Source: Spiroplasma clarkii | Lineage (GTDB): Bacteria > Bacillota_I > Bacilli_A > Mycoplasmatales > Mycoplasmataceae | Assembly (NCBI RefSeq): GCF_002795265.1 | Contig: NZ_CP024870.1 | Span: 62,001 to 126,000, forward strand | DNA length: 64,000 bases | Reading direction: 5' to 3' | Shown here: in pieces, positions 4,039 through 38,159 of the stretch | Position numbering within the stretch: the stretch's first letter is position 1 | Layout of the letters: every line of letters starts with the position of its first letter | Made by a program: the position numbers and the translations under genes | Notes under the pieces: generated by a model | Told to the model about the DNA's origin: nothing | Databases searched by the model: none | The model's input: only the letters and a program-made list of their open reading frames with translations

Positions 4039-6326
4039 TGGCAAAAATAAATAATTCAAGTCTATCGGTTAAACCAACCGACTTGAAACCAGATGAAATT
4101 TTTAAAGTTGAATTTATTGAAATGAAACTGCTAAATTCAAAAACCTGTCAACTAATTTTTTCAAATAATGTTGAAGTACTGGTTAGAAATTTTGAAACTG
4201 AAATAATTCAATTACAAGTTGTCTATAATCAAGAAATTATTATTGATAAACAACAACATCAACTAGAAGCAAAGTTATTGCAGCTTGAAAAGAATAAAAT
4301 TTCAAATACTAACTTTAGTTTGACAATTACTGATAAAAATTATATTTGTATTGAAAATCAAAACCATCAAGTAATTATTAAAGCAATCTTTTTTAAAGAT
4401 AATTTTTTGAACATGTCAATTCAAACAAATAAAAATGAAAAGTTTTATGGGTTTGGTGAAAAAACTGGTCTTAATTTAGATAAAAAATTCACAAATACAT
4501 CAAACTATGCAACTGATTTATACAAAGCACATTGTGATCAAGATTTAGAAATGTATGGGGCACTTAATTTCAATATCATTAACAAAGGTCCCCAAAAAAA
4601 TCTTGGAGTTTTGGTGGATAATCCCTCAAGAACAAAATATGATATGAGAAGTAATGATGAATTTATTGTCAGTGTTTTTAAAAATGACTTAGATATATAT
4701 TTCATTTTAGATACTTCAATTAAAAATGTGATTTATAAATATTATCAGCTAACTGGCTTTCCATTTTTACCATCAAAGTGATCACTGGGACACCATTTAT
4801 CAAAACATAGTTATGAAAACACAAATGTAGTTAAAGAACTAATTGAAAAATCAATTGAAAGTAAAATTAAACTTGATGCAATTTACTTGGATATTTTATA
4901 CATGCAAGAATATAAGTCATTTACAGTTGATAAAGCTCGCTATGAAAATTTAGCAGAGCTAGTAAAATATTGTCAAAGTCATGAAGTTGAAATTGTCCCA
5001 ATTGTAAATCCTGGGGTCAAAGCCGATGAAAAATTTTCATTATTTAACCTTGGTAAAAAAATGAATGCCTTTATAAAACAACCTGATGGCAAAACAATTT
5101 ACCAAGGAGAAGTTTGACCTGGACAATGTGCTTTCCCAGATTTCTTTAATAAAAATGGTTGAGAATTTTGAAAAAAATGTTTTGAATTTTATTTAAGTAA
5201 AAATATTCATGGAGTTTGATTAGACATGAATGAACCTGCAGTTTTCAACGACTTACATGTTGTTGAAAATGAAGCAACTCATATCATAAACAACAAACAA
5301 GTATCCCATGAAGAAATTCATAATAACTATGGAACTTATGAAGCAAAAGCTACTTATGAAATTATGAGTGAAACAAATTTAAGACCTCATTTAGTTTCAA
5401 GAGCTTTTTCAGCGGGAATTCAAAAATATTCAACAGTTTGAACTGGTGACAACTTTTCTTATTGATTCCAACTACAGCAATCTTTACCAATGGTCATGAA
5501 CCTAAGTTTATCTGGAGTTCCATTTACTGGACAAGATCTTGGTGGGTTTGAATATGATTGCAGTGCTGAATTGTTAACTCGTTGGTATCAAGCAAATATT
5601 TTATTTGGTTTGTTTAGAAATCATTGTTCAATAAACAAAAGAGCACAAGAACCATGAACTTTTGATGAAGAAACTACTAAGGCAATTGCCAAAGCAGTAG
5701 AGTTTAGAAATCAATATTTACCAACACTTTATAATCAAGCCTATCTTGTACACAAGTTTGGTGCAAGTTTTGTCACACCATTGTTTTATAATTTTGAAAC
5801 TGATTTAAAATCATATAACATTGATGACCAATATATGGTTGCTAACTTAATGGTTGCACCAATTTTAAAGAAAAATACTTATGACCGTTTGGTTTATTTA
5901 CCAGATAATGAAACTGGTTGAGTGGATCTAAATGAGTTAAAATATTTTGCACCAAACCAAAATATTATTAAACATATTGCTTATGATGAGCTTGGAATTT
6001 TTGTTTTAAACAACTCAATGCTATTTAAAATGGATGCAAGCCAAAAGAAATCCGGACTCTTCAAACAAATTGAAGTTGAAATTTACAATTTCAACAACCA
6101 TGCAACTCCAATTGTTGGTAGTTACTATGATGATGACGGTCTCACAATTAAAGTTGAAAAAAACTTTGAGCATTTTAAATTCTGTTACAGTAATCAAGAA
6201 GTAATTGTTGAAAGTTTAAACAAAAATTTATCATATAAAGAAATAAAAGAAAAATTTAAATTCATTTTAATAAATGAACAAGGAAAAAAACAAATAGAAA
6301 TTAAGGAGGAAGGTTATGGCAATTAA
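4038..6326 (+). CDS. Alpha-glucosidase, glycoside hydrolase family 31
   Basis: 762-residue GH31 enzyme expected to release glucose from the non-reducing ends of maltodextrins in the cytoplasm. The catalytic nucleophile lies in the block WLDMNEP (Asp396; the Trp is a TGA codon). The general acid/base is the Asp in WTGDN (Asp471), followed by the typical GxDLGGF segment around 5535-5550. No signal peptide is seen. The start overlaps the ATPase stop by one base and the 3' end overlaps the phosphorylase gene by 11 bases. Substrate could also be isomaltose- or sucrose-type oligosaccharides; GH31 membership is secure. Confidence 0.92.
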
Positions 6327-12156: not shown

Positions 12157-13932
<1,776 letters not shown>

Positions 13933-13935
13933 TTG

Positions 13936-13967
13936 AAAAAACAGATTATAATTAAAATCTGTTTTTT
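13936..13967 (+). terminator. Rho-independent terminator of maltodextrin operon
   Basis: Perfect inverted repeat AAAAAACAGATT / AATCTGTTTTTT with a short A/T loop and terminal T run, starting three bases after the neopullulanase stop. Confidence 0.88.
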
Positions 13968-14138
13968 GGCATTTTTGTAAATCAGATTAAGACCGCAAAA
14001 TAAAACCACATATTTTTTTATTGTAATGAGTTGAAATAATAAATTTTACATAACTCAAAAGTGCCATTTCTACACAGTATTATTCAATAAAATCAAGTTA
14101 TAAAATTGACATAGATATATAAAGGGAGTAGTATTATT

Positions 14139-14165
14139 ATGATGGAATCTTTAGAGGTTTGATAA
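14139..14165 (+). CDS. Possible 8-residue leader peptide of the ATP synthase operon
   Basis: Very short frame MMESLEVW, whose last codon is TGA (Trp) before TAA. It has its own ribosome site (AAAGGGAG at 14121-14128, about 10 bases upstream). Its stop shares the base of the following ATG (TAATG at 14163-14167). The AtpI-like start has a second ribosome site (GAGG, 14154-14157) inside this frame. This looks like a translated leader coupled to the first ATPase-operon gene, but the frame is too short to be certain from sequence alone. Confidence 0.35.
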
Positions 14166-14527
14166 TGATGAAGAAAATTATTCGCCCCAATAAAACAATG
14201 TTATGAGTCATAACTTTGTTTTATTTATTGGTAGCAGCTTGCTTTACAGCACTTATCATAACAGATATCATCACAGTTTCTTGAATTTATGGTCTACTAT
14301 TAGCTGTAATTCTTGGCATAGTTTCATTTATATTTTTAAGGTTTTCCATAAGCAGGCTTGTTTCAGAGGAAAACCCATTTGAATTTATATTTTTTTCTAT
14401 ACTAAGAACAGGAATATATGCGGTTCCATTCCTTATAAGTGTCTATTTGTCAGAGGCAATTAACATTTTTGGTGTCTTAATCGGTACTTTAAGTGTGGCA
14501 TTGTTTAACCAAATGCTCATAAAGTAA
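14165..14527 (+). CDS. AtpI/MG406-like small membrane protein of the F-ATPase operon
   Basis: 120-residue hydrophobic protein with about four membrane segments (for example ITLFYLLVAACFTALIITDI, and a second after the TGA Trp near residue 40). Position directly upstream of atpB and this architecture match the AtpI/MG406-type proteins that open mollicute ATPase operons and help c-ring assembly or ion handling elsewhere. Start ATG 14165 follows GAGG by seven bases and overlaps the preceding tiny frame; ATG 14168 is an equal alternative. Similarity is by size, topology and position rather than a diagnostic motif. Confidence 0.7.
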
Positions 14528-14575
14528 AGATACAAGTAAATTTTTATAAGGTTAAATATGAAGGGGGGAGTCATT

Positions 14576-15406
14576 ATGCCTTCGTTATTATTAGTAAACT
14601 TTTTAGAGTACTGGAATAAATTCACTCCACAATTTGCATCAATACTATTAACTACAATAGTTATCTGTAGTTTTAGTATTATTTTTAACTTAAAAATTAG
14701 AAATATCAAAGATGGCGAAGAGTTAAGTGGTTTTATGGTTTTAGCAGCAACGATGGTTCAATCATTTGAAAACATGGTTGTTGGGGTAATGGGTAAAAAA
14801 TTTAAGCACCTTACTCCCTATGTTATGTACTTATTTTTATACATTTTAGTATCATCAATCATAGCTCTGCTAGGTTTTGAACCCCTAACAAGTTCATTAA
14901 CTGTAACTCTTGCAATGGCAATAGTTACTTTTGTGGCTATCTATTATTATGGTTTAAGGTACCAAAAATTCTTATTTTTTCAAAGGTATATGTATAATCC
15001 AATTGATATTTTTACACAATTTGTGCCAATTTTATCTCTATCATTTAGGTTATTTGGGAACATTGTGGCAGGATCAATTATTTTAGGATTATTTTATGCC
15101 GTTTTAATCAATCTTCAAGGAAAAATCTTTGGAGTTTCAAATGCCTATCAAGACCAACTCTGGTGAGCGGGATTTAACTTCTTTTCAACAGCGCTACTAC
15201 CTTGATTGCACCTATACTTTGACCTATTTGATGGGTTTATTCAAGGTTTGGTCTTCTCAATGTTGACCTTATCATATTGAGCAAATGCAAAAAATGGAGA
15301 ACATGAACGTTCATCTGAACCAGTTGAAAGGTATAATACCAAAAAACTGCGTGTCAGAAAAATAAAAATTCATAAACATAAAAATGAAGAAAAAACTGAA
15401 ATTTAA
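14576..15406 (+). CDS. atpB: F0F1 ATP synthase subunit a
   Basis: 276-residue membrane subunit a, forming the proton half-channels beside the c-ring. Five or six hydrophobic segments are visible; the essential Arg lies in the helix LSLSFRLFGNIVAGSII (near 15030-15085), the hallmark of the family. ATG 14576 is preferred over in-frame ATG 14558 because the ribosome site AAGGGGGGAG (14561-14570) lies between them. Two TGA Trp codons near 15164 and later extend the protein into a basic C-terminal tail rich in Lys and His (RKIKIHKHKNEEK). Confidence 0.93.
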
Positions 15407-26716: not shown

Positions 26717-28132
26717 ATGAAAAAATTACTTAGTTTAATAAGTGCCATAGGATTAGTGGCAGGAACTACAGGGCAAATCGTGTCTTGTGGTGATGGTGAA
26801 AAAGAAAAACCAGCTGAAGAACCAAAACCAGAACCCGCTAAAAAAGAAAAGCTAAACATTAGTGGACTAGTGATTAGTGCAAATGATAATTACGGAAAAA
26901 TCACAAAAAGCATTAAAGCAATGGCTGAGAAAAATTATAAAGGAAAAGCTATTAACATCAAATTTACTGTTAAAGACAGTTCACAAAATGTCGTAATTGT
27001 CAATGAAGATTTTGTAGCTAAACCTGGACAAACCTTCACATTTGTTATTGAAGGAAAACTTGATGGAGTGGCATTAGAACCAGCTACTTATACTGTTAAA
27101 GATGCAATTACAAAAATTGAAGACATATTCAAAACTGGTTTTGAAGTTACAGTAAACTCTAGAGTTTCAGAGGTTAGAGGTAAAATTGAAACTGCAATTA
27201 AGGAAAAAGTTAAAGACGCAGCTATTAAAACAGATTACGATATTGAAATTAAAGATGATAATGGTGGATTAATAACTAAAAACACTACTGTTAAAGTCTA
27301 TGCAGTTAAAGATAGTGCACTTTTAAGTGGTCAAGTATCTTTGAAAATTACTGATAAAAGAGTTGAACTATCAAGTCTTAAATTCGGTGAGGTAGCTGAA
27401 GGACTTAGTTATGAAAAAATCTTAGGGGTATTTAAAATTGCAAAATTAAGTGGTGAAATTGGTAAAGACTTTATTGTTGAAATTACAAGAAAAGATACTG
27501 ATGTGAAATTTGATGGCTTCTATGAAAGTGTAGCCTTAGATCAAATTAAAATCACTGCAAAGGAAAGTGCAGAGTTTAAAGGAGAAACTACATTGGTAGT
27601 TGCAGAAAGTAAACCTGAACCAGCAAATCCAGATAAACCAACTAGTCCTGAAACTGAACAACCTCAACCAGACAAACCATCAGGTCCTGAAACTGAACAA
27701 CCAACAAACCCTGGAACAGATCAAAATCAACCTGAAAAACCTACTAGTCCTGAAACTGAACAACCTCAACCTGAAAAACCATCAGGTCCTGAAACTGAAC
27801 AACCAACAAACCCTGGAACAGATCAAAATCAACCTGAAAAACCTACTAGTCCTGAAACTGAACAACCTCAACCTGAAAAACCATCAGGTCCTGAAACTGA
27901 ACAACCAGCAAACCCTGGAACAGATCAAAATCAACCTGAAAAACCTACTAGTCCTGAAACTGAGCAACCTCAACCTGAAAAACCATCAGGTCCTGAAACT
28001 GAACAACCAACAAACCCTGGAACTGATCAAAATCAACCTGAACAACCAGCTTCACAACAAGGACAACCAACTCAAGTTGATCAAGCATCAAATCAAACAT
28101 TAGGAGATAGCAATACTGCTCAAGCAAATTAA
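26717..28132 (+). CDS. Surface lipoprotein with C-terminal Pro/Glu/Thr repeats
   Basis: 471 residues. Lipoprotein signal peptide ends at Cys24 (QIVSC), so the mature protein is lipid-anchored outside the cell. A Lys/Pro/Glu linker leads into about 270 residues of beta-rich sequence that I do not recognise. Residues 308-443 are four copies of a 34-residue repeat (PTSPETEQPQPEKPSGPETE plus QPTNPGTDQNQPEK), ending in a Gln/Asn/Ala-rich tail. The stalk-like repeat suggests an exposed surface protein; no function can be assigned. RBS GAAAGGAAAC precedes ATG 26717. Confidence 0.85.
   Translation: MKKLLSLISAIGLVAGTTGQIVSCGDGEKEKPAEEPKPEPAKKEKLNISGLVISANDNYGKITKSIKAMAEKNYKGKAINIKFTVKDSSQNVVIVNEDFVAKPGQTFTFVIEGKLDGVALEPATYTVKDAITKIEDIFKTGFEVTVNSRVSEVRGKIETAIKEKVKDAAIKTDYDIEIKDDNGGLITKNTTVKVYAVKDSALLSGQVSLKITDKRVELSSLKFGEVAEGLSYEKILGVFKIAKLSGEIGKDFIVEITRKDTDVKFDGFYESVALDQIKITAKESAEFKGETTLVVAESKPEPANPDKPTSPETEQPQPDKPSGPETEQPTNPGTDQNQPEKPTSPETEQPQPEKPSGPETEQPTNPGTDQNQPEKPTSPETEQPQPEKPSGPETEQPANPGTDQNQPEKPTSPETEQPQPEKPSGPETEQPTNPGTDQNQPEQPASQQGQPTQVDQASNQTLGDSNTAQAN
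27638..28045 (+). repeat. Four tandem 102-bp repeats inside the lipoprotein gene
   Basis: Units 27638-27739, 27740-27841, 27842-27943 and 27944-28045 encode the 34-residue repeat and differ by only a few bases, mostly single substitutions (for example T/A in QPTNPG/QPANPG, and GAC/GAA in the first unit). Each unit itself contains two copies of PETEQP. The length is a multiple of three, so copy changes would keep the frame. Confidence 0.95.
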
Positions 28133-33673: not shown

Positions 33674-35925
33674 ATGAAAAAACTTACCAATTGATTAAAA
33701 ATTTTTGCTGGTTTAAGTTTGGTCACAACTCCCATATCACTAGTTGTATCATGTGGAAGCACTAACAAACCTAAACTAGATGAACATGTAAAGACATTTG
33801 CAAAAATGCCAACCCAGAAAACTCAGGAGAAAACCTAACCTTCTCAGAGAACTTTTCAACAGGGTATAAAACCACAGCAGACATTTCAAGACAAAAAAAT
33901 GATGGAGTGCCTTTTGCCAAGTACTGGATGCCAAAAGGACAAAAAGAAAGTGAGTTTGGCTATTCTGATAAAAGTGATTTAATAAATAGTTTTATGAACT
34001 ATAATCCACAAACAGATAAAGATGCTAAATTTAATGTTGCTAGTGTCCCTCTAGCAACTAGACAACAAGCTGCAGGGTCAAACCAAAATCAAGATAAAAC
34101 AGGTACTACTCGCCATCATGCCATGGGAGTAGTTAACAAAAACACTTCAGGAACTCCAGCTCAAGGAAATCATAACTTTGATGGTTATAATTTTACTAAT
34201 TGATCTTATGTTGATGAATACACAGGTTGAGCTGGAGCCATTAATGAAGGAATTATTGTTTTACCAAGTGCTGACATCATTGATGCTGCTCACACCAATG
34301 GAACAGAAATGTTGGGGATAATTTACTTTGATGGATTTTTTGGTTTAACAGCAGATGCTTTAAAAGGGTTCTTTGATAAAGATGAAGCTGGAAACTACAA
34401 AATTGTTGACAAACACATAGAAGTTGCTGACTACTTTGGCTTTGATGGATGATTTTGAAACAATCAAGCTAATGCTAACCCAGGAACTGTTGATGAAGCA
34501 GAAGTAACTGCTGTTATGGCACAGTACTCTGCTAAAGTAAAACAACAAAATAAAAAGCAAAGAATAGTTATGTATCACAATGCTTTGGGTTATGGAGACC
34601 AATTAGCAACAGATTACTTAACTAATGGAGCTGATAACTATATTAGTGACTTTGGTTTTAGTAATGGCCAAAAACTAGAAAATGCTAACGATAAAGAATA
34701 TGCTTTTAAAAATCACACTATGATTAATATTAACTCATATTGAGGTTCTTTAAAACAAGGAAACTATGACTTTAACTATGAAGTTAAAGGTAAAAATGGT
34801 TACAGCACTTCTTATGCTTCATTTGCCATGGCAGACACTTATAAAGATTTTGCCCAAGGTAGTGGAGTTGGCATCAAGCAATCAATCAATAAACAAAAAA
34901 ACTTTAGAGACAATGATAAAGCCTTATTTGTTGGACCTCATGGAGATCCATCACAAGTAACTGATAAAGAAACAGGAATAGCTCCAATAATTGGGGAAAG
35001 AACCCCAATTATTGGAGAACAATTTAGTACTAATTTTTCAACAGGAAATGGAATTGACTTTTATAGTGGCGGTCAAAAAGTCAGTGATGAACAATTTATT
35101 TGAAACCACCGAGGAGTCACAGACATCATGCCCACTTACCAATGGATTGTTGAAAATACTAATGGCAATAACTTTGGAGCTGATTTTAGTTATGAAAAAG
35201 CTTATGCCAAAGGAAACAGTGTTTCATTTGCTGCAAAAGAATGAGATGAAAACAATGCCAAATATATTGGTGGAAACTTAAAAACCAATGGTAAAACTAA
35301 AGCTAAATTGTTTGGTTCAAATATGAAAATTTCAAACCAAAAAATTTCAATGAAAGTTTCTGCAATGAGAGAAGCTATTGATTTAATTACTAAATCTGAC
35401 CCAAGTATCAATTTTGCCTTTGAATTAAAATTTGCTAATGGAGGAGAAAAAACAATAACTCCAACCAGCGTTGAATTTGTTAAAGGTTCACAAAATTGAT
35501 ATGACTTAGAAACTGATTTAAGCGAATTTAGTGGTGACACTTTAACTGAAATTGGAATTTCATTTACAGGAACAAAAGATTTAGATAAAGTCTTTGTAGA
35601 TCTAGGTGAATTGGCAGTAACAAAACCAAGTCTAGAAAGTAAATTGGACTTTGTTGATGACATCAAATATGAATATTTAATTAAAGACCATGACTTTAAC
35701 ACTGCTAATATCAGAATGTATTGAGATGCAGCACCAGGAACTGTTGAAAGATATGAAGTTTATCAAATTGTTAATGGAGAATACAAAATTTTAGGAACTA
35801 CAAGAACTAATGCTTACTTTGTTGAAAACATTGACTTAAGTCTTGGTGATAAAATTGCTGTTAAAGCAATTAACAAATATGATGAAAATGATTTTAAAAT
35901 CACAATTAGAGGTATAAATCATTAA
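33674..35925 (+). pseudogene. Endo-beta-N-acetylglucosaminidase-like lipoprotein (GH85), frameshifted
   Basis: Signal peptide with lipobox SLVVSC (Cys27) starts at ATG 33674; that frame stops at 33836. From about 33805 the protein continues in another frame to 35925 and clearly resembles GH85 (NFSTGYKTTADISRQ, ATRQQAAG, LGIIYFDGFFG). The join falls in a run of five A (about 33802-33806); six A would restore a single frame of about 750 residues. Odd: in the catalytic block, family members have DGWFINQE, but here it reads DGWFWNNQ, so the Asn (34459) is kept while the acid/base Glu is Gln (34465). It may be a pseudogene, a phase-variable gene or a sequencing error. Confidence 0.75.
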
Positions 35926-35940: not shown

Positions 35941-37458
35941 ATGAAAAAACTATTAACTTATTTAGGGAGCTTTTGTATATCGACAATGGCTGCTGGTCAA
36001 ATTGTAGCATGTAATCCCAAAGCTGATCAAAATTCAGAACAAGATTTAGAAAAGGATTTTACAAATGGGGGTGCTTTAACTTATTTATTACAGCACCATG
36101 ACATTATTAGTCAAGACATAATTGTTCAAAATACTGACAAAAGTGAATTAGAAAAAATTAGTTCACAAATTGTTGAAAAATTTAATAAACTAGAAGATTT
36201 AAAATTTTCATTTGAAGGAGAAATAGTAGTCATCACCCCAAAAACTTTTGAAGTTATTGAGGGTTCATTTATAAAATTTGTTTGTACCTATGGAGATGTT
36301 GGTGAAACAATTATTTTTAATTGAAACAAAAATAATGCTATCAATGTTATTGTGGTTGATGACTTAAAGAATGCAATTTTTTCAGAGAACTTTGAAAACA
36401 TTAATGAAACAATTGATTTCAAAACAAAATTAAATTTAAAAGCTGATTACCCAGGTAAAGTTGAAGTTAAGTTAAACCAAAATATTGATCAAACCAAAGA
36501 TGTTATTGCAGTTGTCAGTGAATTGCAAGTGCAATTAGACAACATCTTAACTTCAAGTCAAAAGTTTAACTTAAATACTAAGTTGTATGATGCAAGAGTT
36601 ATTTTCAAGCAAATGTTTGATTCATTTTGAAGTGCAAACATTTTTGCAGATAGAGTCTATGAAAGTGACAAGAAATTTTTTGGAGGCTTTTTTGTACCAA
36701 CATACCATGATGTTATAGCACGTCATACAGGTGAAAAATTAACTGGTCAATACATGTATAAAGTGACTTTACCTGCACCAACTGGTTACAGCAATTATGG
36801 AATTTATGATGCTAGTACTGACTCAAATAAAGATTTAACTATAGAAGAATTTGAATATTATAAATTAAGTCAACCCACAGGAAACTTCTCTCTGACTGAA
36901 ATAAAAAACTATGTTAATACTTTTAATAGTTCTGATAAAGGTTATGGTTTTATTGTTAGTGGAACAAATGCTGCAAAATTATTTGATGGCGGTATTGTGG
37001 CTCAAATGAAAGCAGCAGATGCAGCCCCAAACATAGAAGAAGCAAAAAAAATAGGCAACTTGGGAGACATAAGTGATACTGAAAGGGGTTCACTATCTGG
37101 AGCTCACAATATGGCCAAATCAGTTGCTAAATATATTTATGATGGTCAAAAAACAGTAGCAATTAATGGTGAAAACCAAGAAGTGAACTTTGCCCCAAGA
37201 CACTTTAAACAAAAATACTCAGACAATACTGTTTTTAACTACTATGTTGATGAAGTGCAACCCTTGGTTGATGATGTTAACACCATTGATTATTGAGGCT
37301 ATGCAAAACAAGGATTAAAATTTCGAGTAGCAAATGTTGATGATCCAGAGGTTTTTAGTTACATAACTATGTCAATTGATGAGTTCTTTAAAATCAATGA
37401 ACAAAAAAAAGATGTCAAAATGGATACATTAAAGGAAATTTTAGACAAAAACAAATAG
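35941..37458 (+). CDS. Lipoprotein of unknown function downstream of the GH85 gene
   Basis: 505 residues. Signal peptide with lipobox QIVAC (Cys24) predicts a lipid-anchored surface protein. The rest is not recognised: an N-terminal third rich in Asp/Glu/Lys/Ile, then a region with PAPTGYSNYGIYDAS and a TERGSLSGAHNMAKSVAKYI helix-like segment. A strong RBS (TTAGGAGGAAAAA) 15 bases after the GH85 stop suggests one transcription unit, so a role in glycan binding or use is possible but unproved. Confidence 0.8.
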
Positions 37459-37568: not shown

Positions 37569-38159
37569 ATGAAAAAGACACTTTATATTATGAGACATGG
37601 TCAAACTATGTTTAATCAATTAAAAAGAATGCAAGGTTGATGTGATTCACCATTAACAAAATATGGAATTGCTCAAGCAAAAATTGCTGGGGAGTGATTT
37701 AAAAATAAAAAAATAGACTTTAAACATGGTTATTGTTCAACTTCAGAAAGAACTTCAGATACTTTAGAAAATGTAGTTCCCAAAATTCCTTACCATAGAC
37801 TAAAAGGAATCAAAGAACAAAGTTTTGGTAAATTTGAAGCTCAACCTGAATTTTTAAACCCACCTTCACCATATGGGGATTTTTTCAAGTATGCTGGTGG
37901 TGAAACTGATACAGAACTTAAAAATAGGGTTGTGAAAACTATTAGTGATATTGCAGCTAATGATGCTGAAAAACAAATTTTGATTGTAACCCATGGGATT
38001 GTCATAGCACAATTTATTAGAAGTCAAATCAAAGAAGGACAAACATTTCCTAGATTTACCAACTGTTCTATCATTGTTTTTGAGTATGAAAATGAAAAAT
38101 TTAATTTTAAAGAAATTATCAATCATGATTATTCAAAAATTGATCATTTAGCAGAATAA
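37569..38159 (+). CDS. Histidine phosphatase / phosphoglycerate mutase-like protein
   Basis: 196-residue histidine-phosphatase protein. The catalytic RHG motif (MRHGQTMFN, His10) with the Arg/Glu-containing STSERTSDT block and the second His in VTHGIVIAQF are present. Such proteins include cofactor-dependent phosphoglycerate mutases and broad phosphatases; size and the lack of typical dPGM blocks favour a phosphatase. SD GAGG lies about nine bases before ATG 37569. It is monocistronic. Confidence 0.85.

Follow-up and report, generated by a model that had tools for sequence, protein, structure and literature searches.

A frame-broken GH85 endo-beta-N-acetylglucosaminidase gene of Spiroplasma clarkii with glutamine at the catalytic glutamate position: a probable recent pseudogene

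The window analysed here is a 64,000-base stretch of Spiroplasma clarkii DNA (bases 62001-126000 of a 1,560,007-base single-contig genome), which was translated with genetic code 4, in which TGA encodes Trp, in keeping with its Mollicute origin. In window coordinates, the locus comprises the following features:

33674..33838, + strand: 5' fragment with a lipoprotein signal peptide and the lipobox LVVSC, 54 codons followed by TAA
33775..33835, + strand: two frames open together, with the frame break inside; A5 run at 33802-33806
33802..35925, + strand: GH85 frame, 707 codons, nine TGA read as Trp; PF03644 and GH85_C (PF21910)
34459..34461, + strand: AAC, Asn220, the counterpart of Endo-A Asn171, kept
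34465..34467, + strand: CAA, Gln222 of the window protein P0001, at the place of Endo-A Glu173
35941..37458, + strand: intact lipoprotein gene, with a relative that also lies beside the intact GH85 paralogue

The ATG at 33674, downstream of a purine stretch resembling a ribosome-binding site, opens the signal sequence MKKLTNWLKIFAGLSLVTTPISLVVSC, and the same frame ends at the TAA at 33836 (table 4). The GH85 domain lies in another frame, open from 33775 to 35925, which overlaps the first only between 33775 and 33835 and contains no stop across the 707 codons from 33802 to 35925 under code 4. The extent of the gene and the break just after the lipoprotein signal were thus recovered as in the original prediction, made from the letters alone. 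That prediction had also put the break at the A5 run, and on this point it holds in part: the match to the nearest paralogue switches frame at about 33800-33812, a span which includes the run, so that the break fits the A5 tract, but its exact base cannot be placed. A position at such a tract is unremarkable, as 9.4% of the gene is found no more than 3 bases away from an A or T run of at least five. Restart downstream of the break was rejected: no convincing ribosome site precedes the GTG at 33907 or the ATGs at 33928, 33994 and 34123, nor would a signal peptide result from any of them. As sequenced, the gene is thus predicted to yield no more than a short lipidated peptide, about 28 residues long from the lipobox Cys onwards, and to encode no glycan-binding GH85 lipoprotein.

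Affiliation of the interrupted frame to GH85 is clear by both sequence and predicted fold. Indeed, PF03644 scores 122.7 bits against a curated Pfam cut-off of 22.2 and GH85_C 29.3 against 27; an AlphaFold2 model computed from the window protein and 19 relatives (pTM 0.80, mean pLDDT 68) places Gln222 at the end of strand 216-222, residues 263-355 being poorly modelled; and the top 13 Foldseek matches are all endo-beta-N-acetylglucosaminidases (Endo-A, Endo-D and Endo-HS entries). Endo-A of Arthrobacter protophormiae (PDB 3fhq, 3fha) has the same fold and domain order at about 22% identity, but differs in the acceptor-side loop region, which corresponds to the poorly modelled residues of P0001, and the window gene, for its part, has a frameshift. 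Endo-D of Streptococcus pneumoniae (2w91, 3gdb), an active enzyme type, has the GH85 catalytic and ancillary fold in common with the window protein, yet is distant from it, at 18-19% identity. Membership among the active enzymes is another matter and fails on two features: the gene of the window copy is interrupted, and its acid/base Glu is replaced by Gln222.

This second feature, also part of the original prediction, stood up to alignment with characterized GH85 enzymes. The block of P0001 reads F214-D-G-W-F-W-N220-N-Q222, and phmmer pairs Asn220 with Asn171 of Endo-A and Gln222 with its position 173, the latter being Glu in 3fhq and Gln in 2vtf, the laboratory mutant E173Q named in the title of that entry; the window gene thus has a natural Gln where Endo-A was mutated. 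The possibility that another Glu fills the catalytic position was ruled out, as the flanking FDGW-x-x-N block aligns without gaps. Glu173 of Endo-A is described in the accessible text of PMC2646837 as the proton donor and as present in all GH85 members. By analogy with Endo-A, Gln222 should abolish normal hydrolysis. The equivalents of Endo-A Asn171 and Tyr205 are nonetheless retained, within a set of pocket residues comprising Trp143 (Endo-A Trp93), Asn220, Tyr258 (Tyr205) and Phe284 (probably Phe243), a pairing taken from alignments in which Phe284 is the least sure. Our literature searches returned no publication linking GH85 to pseudoenzymes or to E173Q, nor GH85 by name to Spiroplasma, and nothing relevant for E337Q.

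To place this substitution within the family, GH85 sequences were gathered from genomes of the order (320) and of the genus (20), and from 30 named loci mostly of other phyla. Matches were found in 39 of the 320 order genomes, where scoring was limited to three candidates per genome, so that additional copies outside the genus may be missed, and in 18 of the 20 genus genomes, the other two having none. The 114 raw matches were reduced to 101 by removal of identical or contained copies, and to 95 by removal of six motif-less fragments. The acid/base residue is Glu in 94 of these 95 distinct sequences (62/62 other Mollicute and 32/32 non-Mollicute sequences), the sole Gln being that of the window copy, whereas the catalytic Asn, which orients the acetamido group, is present in the window copy and in all 94 others. 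A further departure is His205, where the 94 others have Leu or Met. A change from Glu to Gln at a residue invariant in 94 relatives goes beyond background noise in a gene under constraint. Two sequences, L092 and L074, have the Asp of the DGW block changed (FNGW and FEGW) and keep the Glu. In Streptomyces huasconensis (L085:5563-6549), the GH85 frame ends at FDGWFIN with a C-terminal piece downstream, and this sequence was excluded from the count.

Broken genes are more frequent in the family than losses of the catalytic Glu. Five of the 62 other Mollicute GH85 genes are interrupted (L027 in genome G018, L046 in G315, L048 in G191, L053 in G202 and L099 in G172) and a sixth case, L055 (G177), is short at its 5' end; all six retain the Glu. 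Loss of GH85 genes by frameshift or stop is thus a common event in Mollicutes, and loss of the Glu is not. As for the window subfamily, a first contig scan revealed no orthologue and a second gave only distant GH85 of other phyla; order-wide, among the best three or fewer candidates per genome, nothing exceeded 48% identity outside the own genome, and that match was short. With the same limit on the order-wide search, no Gln-bearing orthologue was detected in any genome searched.

The S. clarkii genome itself contains five GH85 genes including the window copy, and the other four all have the Glu (DGWLWNNE, DGWFYNDE, DGWFWNNE and DGWFINDE). The nearest paralogue, at about 172 kb (L006:6108-8384), is 55% identical to the window copy and has in common with it the GH85 and GH85_C domains, a lipoprotein signal and a partner lipoprotein family; unlike it, the paralogue is in frame, has Glu in DGWLWNNE and is flanked by two GH38 alpha-mannosidase genes (L006:3-2654 and 12568-15000). 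In a quick, midpoint-rooted tree, these two copies form their own clade, sister to all other Mollicute GH85 except L105, a long-branch sequence that groups with the non-Mollicute ones. The paralogue lies between two partner lipoproteins, with an RpiR-like regulator nearby whose matches are below curated cut-offs, and the intact cassette together with its GH38 genes is a plausible N-glycan-use locus. Indeed, the proximity of GH85 and GH38 mannosidase genes in this beetle-gut Spiroplasma points to N-glycan use by these bacteria. This cassette is itself not free of damage: the upstream partner lipoprotein gene carries a frameshift close to its 3' end (L006 about 5780-5890, genome about 171.8 kb), its match to the sister lipoprotein continuing in another frame with no homopolymer at the break.

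The surroundings of the window copy are those of an inserted cassette. The lipoprotein gene at 35941-37458 has no Pfam match and a family member at L006:8406-10127, and full-length relatives were found in the own genome only, none being present in the other 319 genomes of the order. In the L006 member, the spiralin lipoprotein model matches residues 1-201 weakly, with a score below the cut-off. The histidine-phosphatase gene that follows (37569-38156) has, in the same genome, a further copy at 1.09 Mb with 63% identity, and no match in the other 19 genus genomes. Together with the broken GH85 gene, these two genes fill a gap of 5.0 kb between the UPF0029 gene and secA; in the other genus genomes, by distances worked out by hand from gene coordinates, this gap is below 300 bases in 11 of 19, about 0.7 kb in three and 3.8-12.3 kb in five. 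The short gaps elsewhere and the unmatched neighbours show the cassette to be a lineage-specific insertion, at a junction where other inserts also seem to have landed. Such an insertion fits the accessible account in PMC6007557, in which S. clarkii, a beetle-gut symbiont, is seen as a species enlarged by gene acquisition.

Apart from its two lesions, the window copy looks like a gene that was long maintained. Where at least 60% of the 93 other sequences agree (113 columns), eight departures are specific to the window copy versus nine to the L006 paralogue, and in 184 Mollicute-only columns the counts are 16 versus 14. Relative-rate counts, averaged over 61 outgroups, are likewise close (41.2 for the window copy, 39.5 for the paralogue), as are branch lengths (0.54 versus 0.47). 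Of the 17 columns with at least 95% conservation among all the others, the window copy departs in a single one, Glu222 to Gln, joined at 90% conservation by Leu205 to His; these two positions apart, conserved columns display no excess of departures. This near-equality with the paralogue is evidence for normal constraint through most of the history of the window copy. On these alignments, either both lesions would be recent, or the Glu was lost earlier and the protein kept for a non-cutting role; recent decay is favoured by the lack of a Gln-bearing orthologue among the genomes searched and by the other broken GH85 genes. The species is sampled by one genome, and the sole close copy, at 55% identity, is too distant for silent-site dating of the Glu loss.

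We consider the locus to be a recently broken copy of a GH85 endo-beta-N-acetylglucosaminidase gene, that is a pseudogene, with a probability of about three in four. Under this reading, a GH85-lipoprotein cassette, paralogous to the intact one found at 166-181 kb among GH38 alpha-mannosidase genes, would have entered the UPF0029-secA junction in this Spiroplasma lineage; since the genome has four further GH85 genes, this copy would have been redundant, and it would have lost both its reading frame and its catalytic Glu, in either order. The frame break, the Gln, the other copies, the insertion and the near-normal constraint on the remaining sequence are observed; we infer that redundancy was the cause, that the copy lacks function and that the damage is recent. 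Several lines of evidence converge on this scenario: two independent lesions hit one gene, the other GH85 genes of the genome all have the Glu, breakage is common in the family (the five interrupted genes, the short L055 and the two genus genomes devoid of GH85), the partner lipoprotein of the sister cassette is frameshifted too and not at a homopolymer, no downstream start has a convincing ribosome site, and a position otherwise restricted to Leu or Met is His205. The copy is also interrupted where relatives are intact, as expected of a pseudogene. Weighing against it, the frame break apart, 707 codons remain open, constraint is not visibly relaxed, and a single genome represents the species. 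If correct, the locus would be a further example of turnover among redundant Mollicute GH85 copies.

The single change among the 17 most conserved columns also fits a non-catalytic protein under selection until recently, and the foremost alternative, unlikely in our view, is a pseudo-enzyme: after the loss of the Glu, the protein would have been kept at the surface as a lipoprotein that binds N-glycans, and the frame break would have silenced it only recently. Glu222 apart, conserved sites are indeed retained to the same degree as in the active-type paralogue, Trp143, Asn220, Tyr258 and Phe284 are in place, and Endo-A E173Q folds well enough to give crystals (2vtf); however, the genomes searched yielded no Gln-bearing orthologue, the conserved Leu205 has become His, and the gene is now out of frame. 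Equally unlikely is a natural counterpart of E173Q: a GH85 lipoprotein that would have acted as a catalytically dead N-glycan receptor at the Spiroplasma surface, the Glu alone being replaced under otherwise continued constraint, and that would now be silenced or occasionally ON in some cells. If made and binding, the protein would be the sole Glu-less GH85 among the 95 sequences compared, and a natural lectin obtained through the one substitution that crystallographers had introduced by hand.

The remaining explanations concern the frame break itself. That it is a sequencing or assembly error, the gene being an intact Gln-bearing lipoprotein gene, agrees with a single indel in or beside a homopolymer and with the absence of any other stop, and is nevertheless improbable. 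An A5 run is an easy tract for MiSeq chemistry. According to the accessible part of PMC6007557, the MiSeq data for strain CN-5 of S. clarkii reach depths of 430x and 60x and were supplemented by Sanger checks, and if the present genome is that of CN-5, this depth makes a read error at the A5 run unlikely. The original prediction had rather seen in the run a possible phase-variation switch, a phase-variable lipoprotein being turned on and off by slippage; we now regard this as very improbable. The break does lie in or beside the run just past the lipobox, and A6/A7 length differences between strains are reported in lipoprotein genes of Mycoplasma agalactiae; yet, in the same partly accessible source (PMC2824730), the Mycoplasma tracts tied to phase variation are G8-G13, and the present gene offers no long or unusual tract at the break, only an A5. 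Such a run is commonplace (331 A5 and 245 longer A runs on the plus strand of the window), neither the three A6 runs of the gene, one of which falls in the signal region, nor its two A7 runs disturb the frame, no tract-length variant is known from the one genome of the species, and an ON state would still bear the Gln. Nor does the lipoprotein gene frameshifted in the sister cassette have a homopolymer at its break. Finally, -1 frameshifting at the A run, whether programmed or spontaneous, could yield some full-length protein, since a -1 shift is what is required and slippage of a Lys codon on A-AAA is feasible; this we hold to be the least probable explanation, as there is no canonical X-XXY-YYZ heptamer, the next codon is ATG, and the paralogue is in frame without a slippery heptamer. 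Its programmed form was rejected on the lack of a standard heptamer in the sequence.

Two other regions of the window were observed in passing. The lipoprotein at 26717-28132 ends in repeats like PTSPETEQPQPEKPSGPETEQPTNPGTDQNQPEK (about 27590-28110), whose copy number could vary. Between 51214 and 63098 lie three successive triplets, each made of a PTS permease, a GH1-like glycosidase and a small PTS-like gene (names assigned by eye), with near-identical stretches among them.
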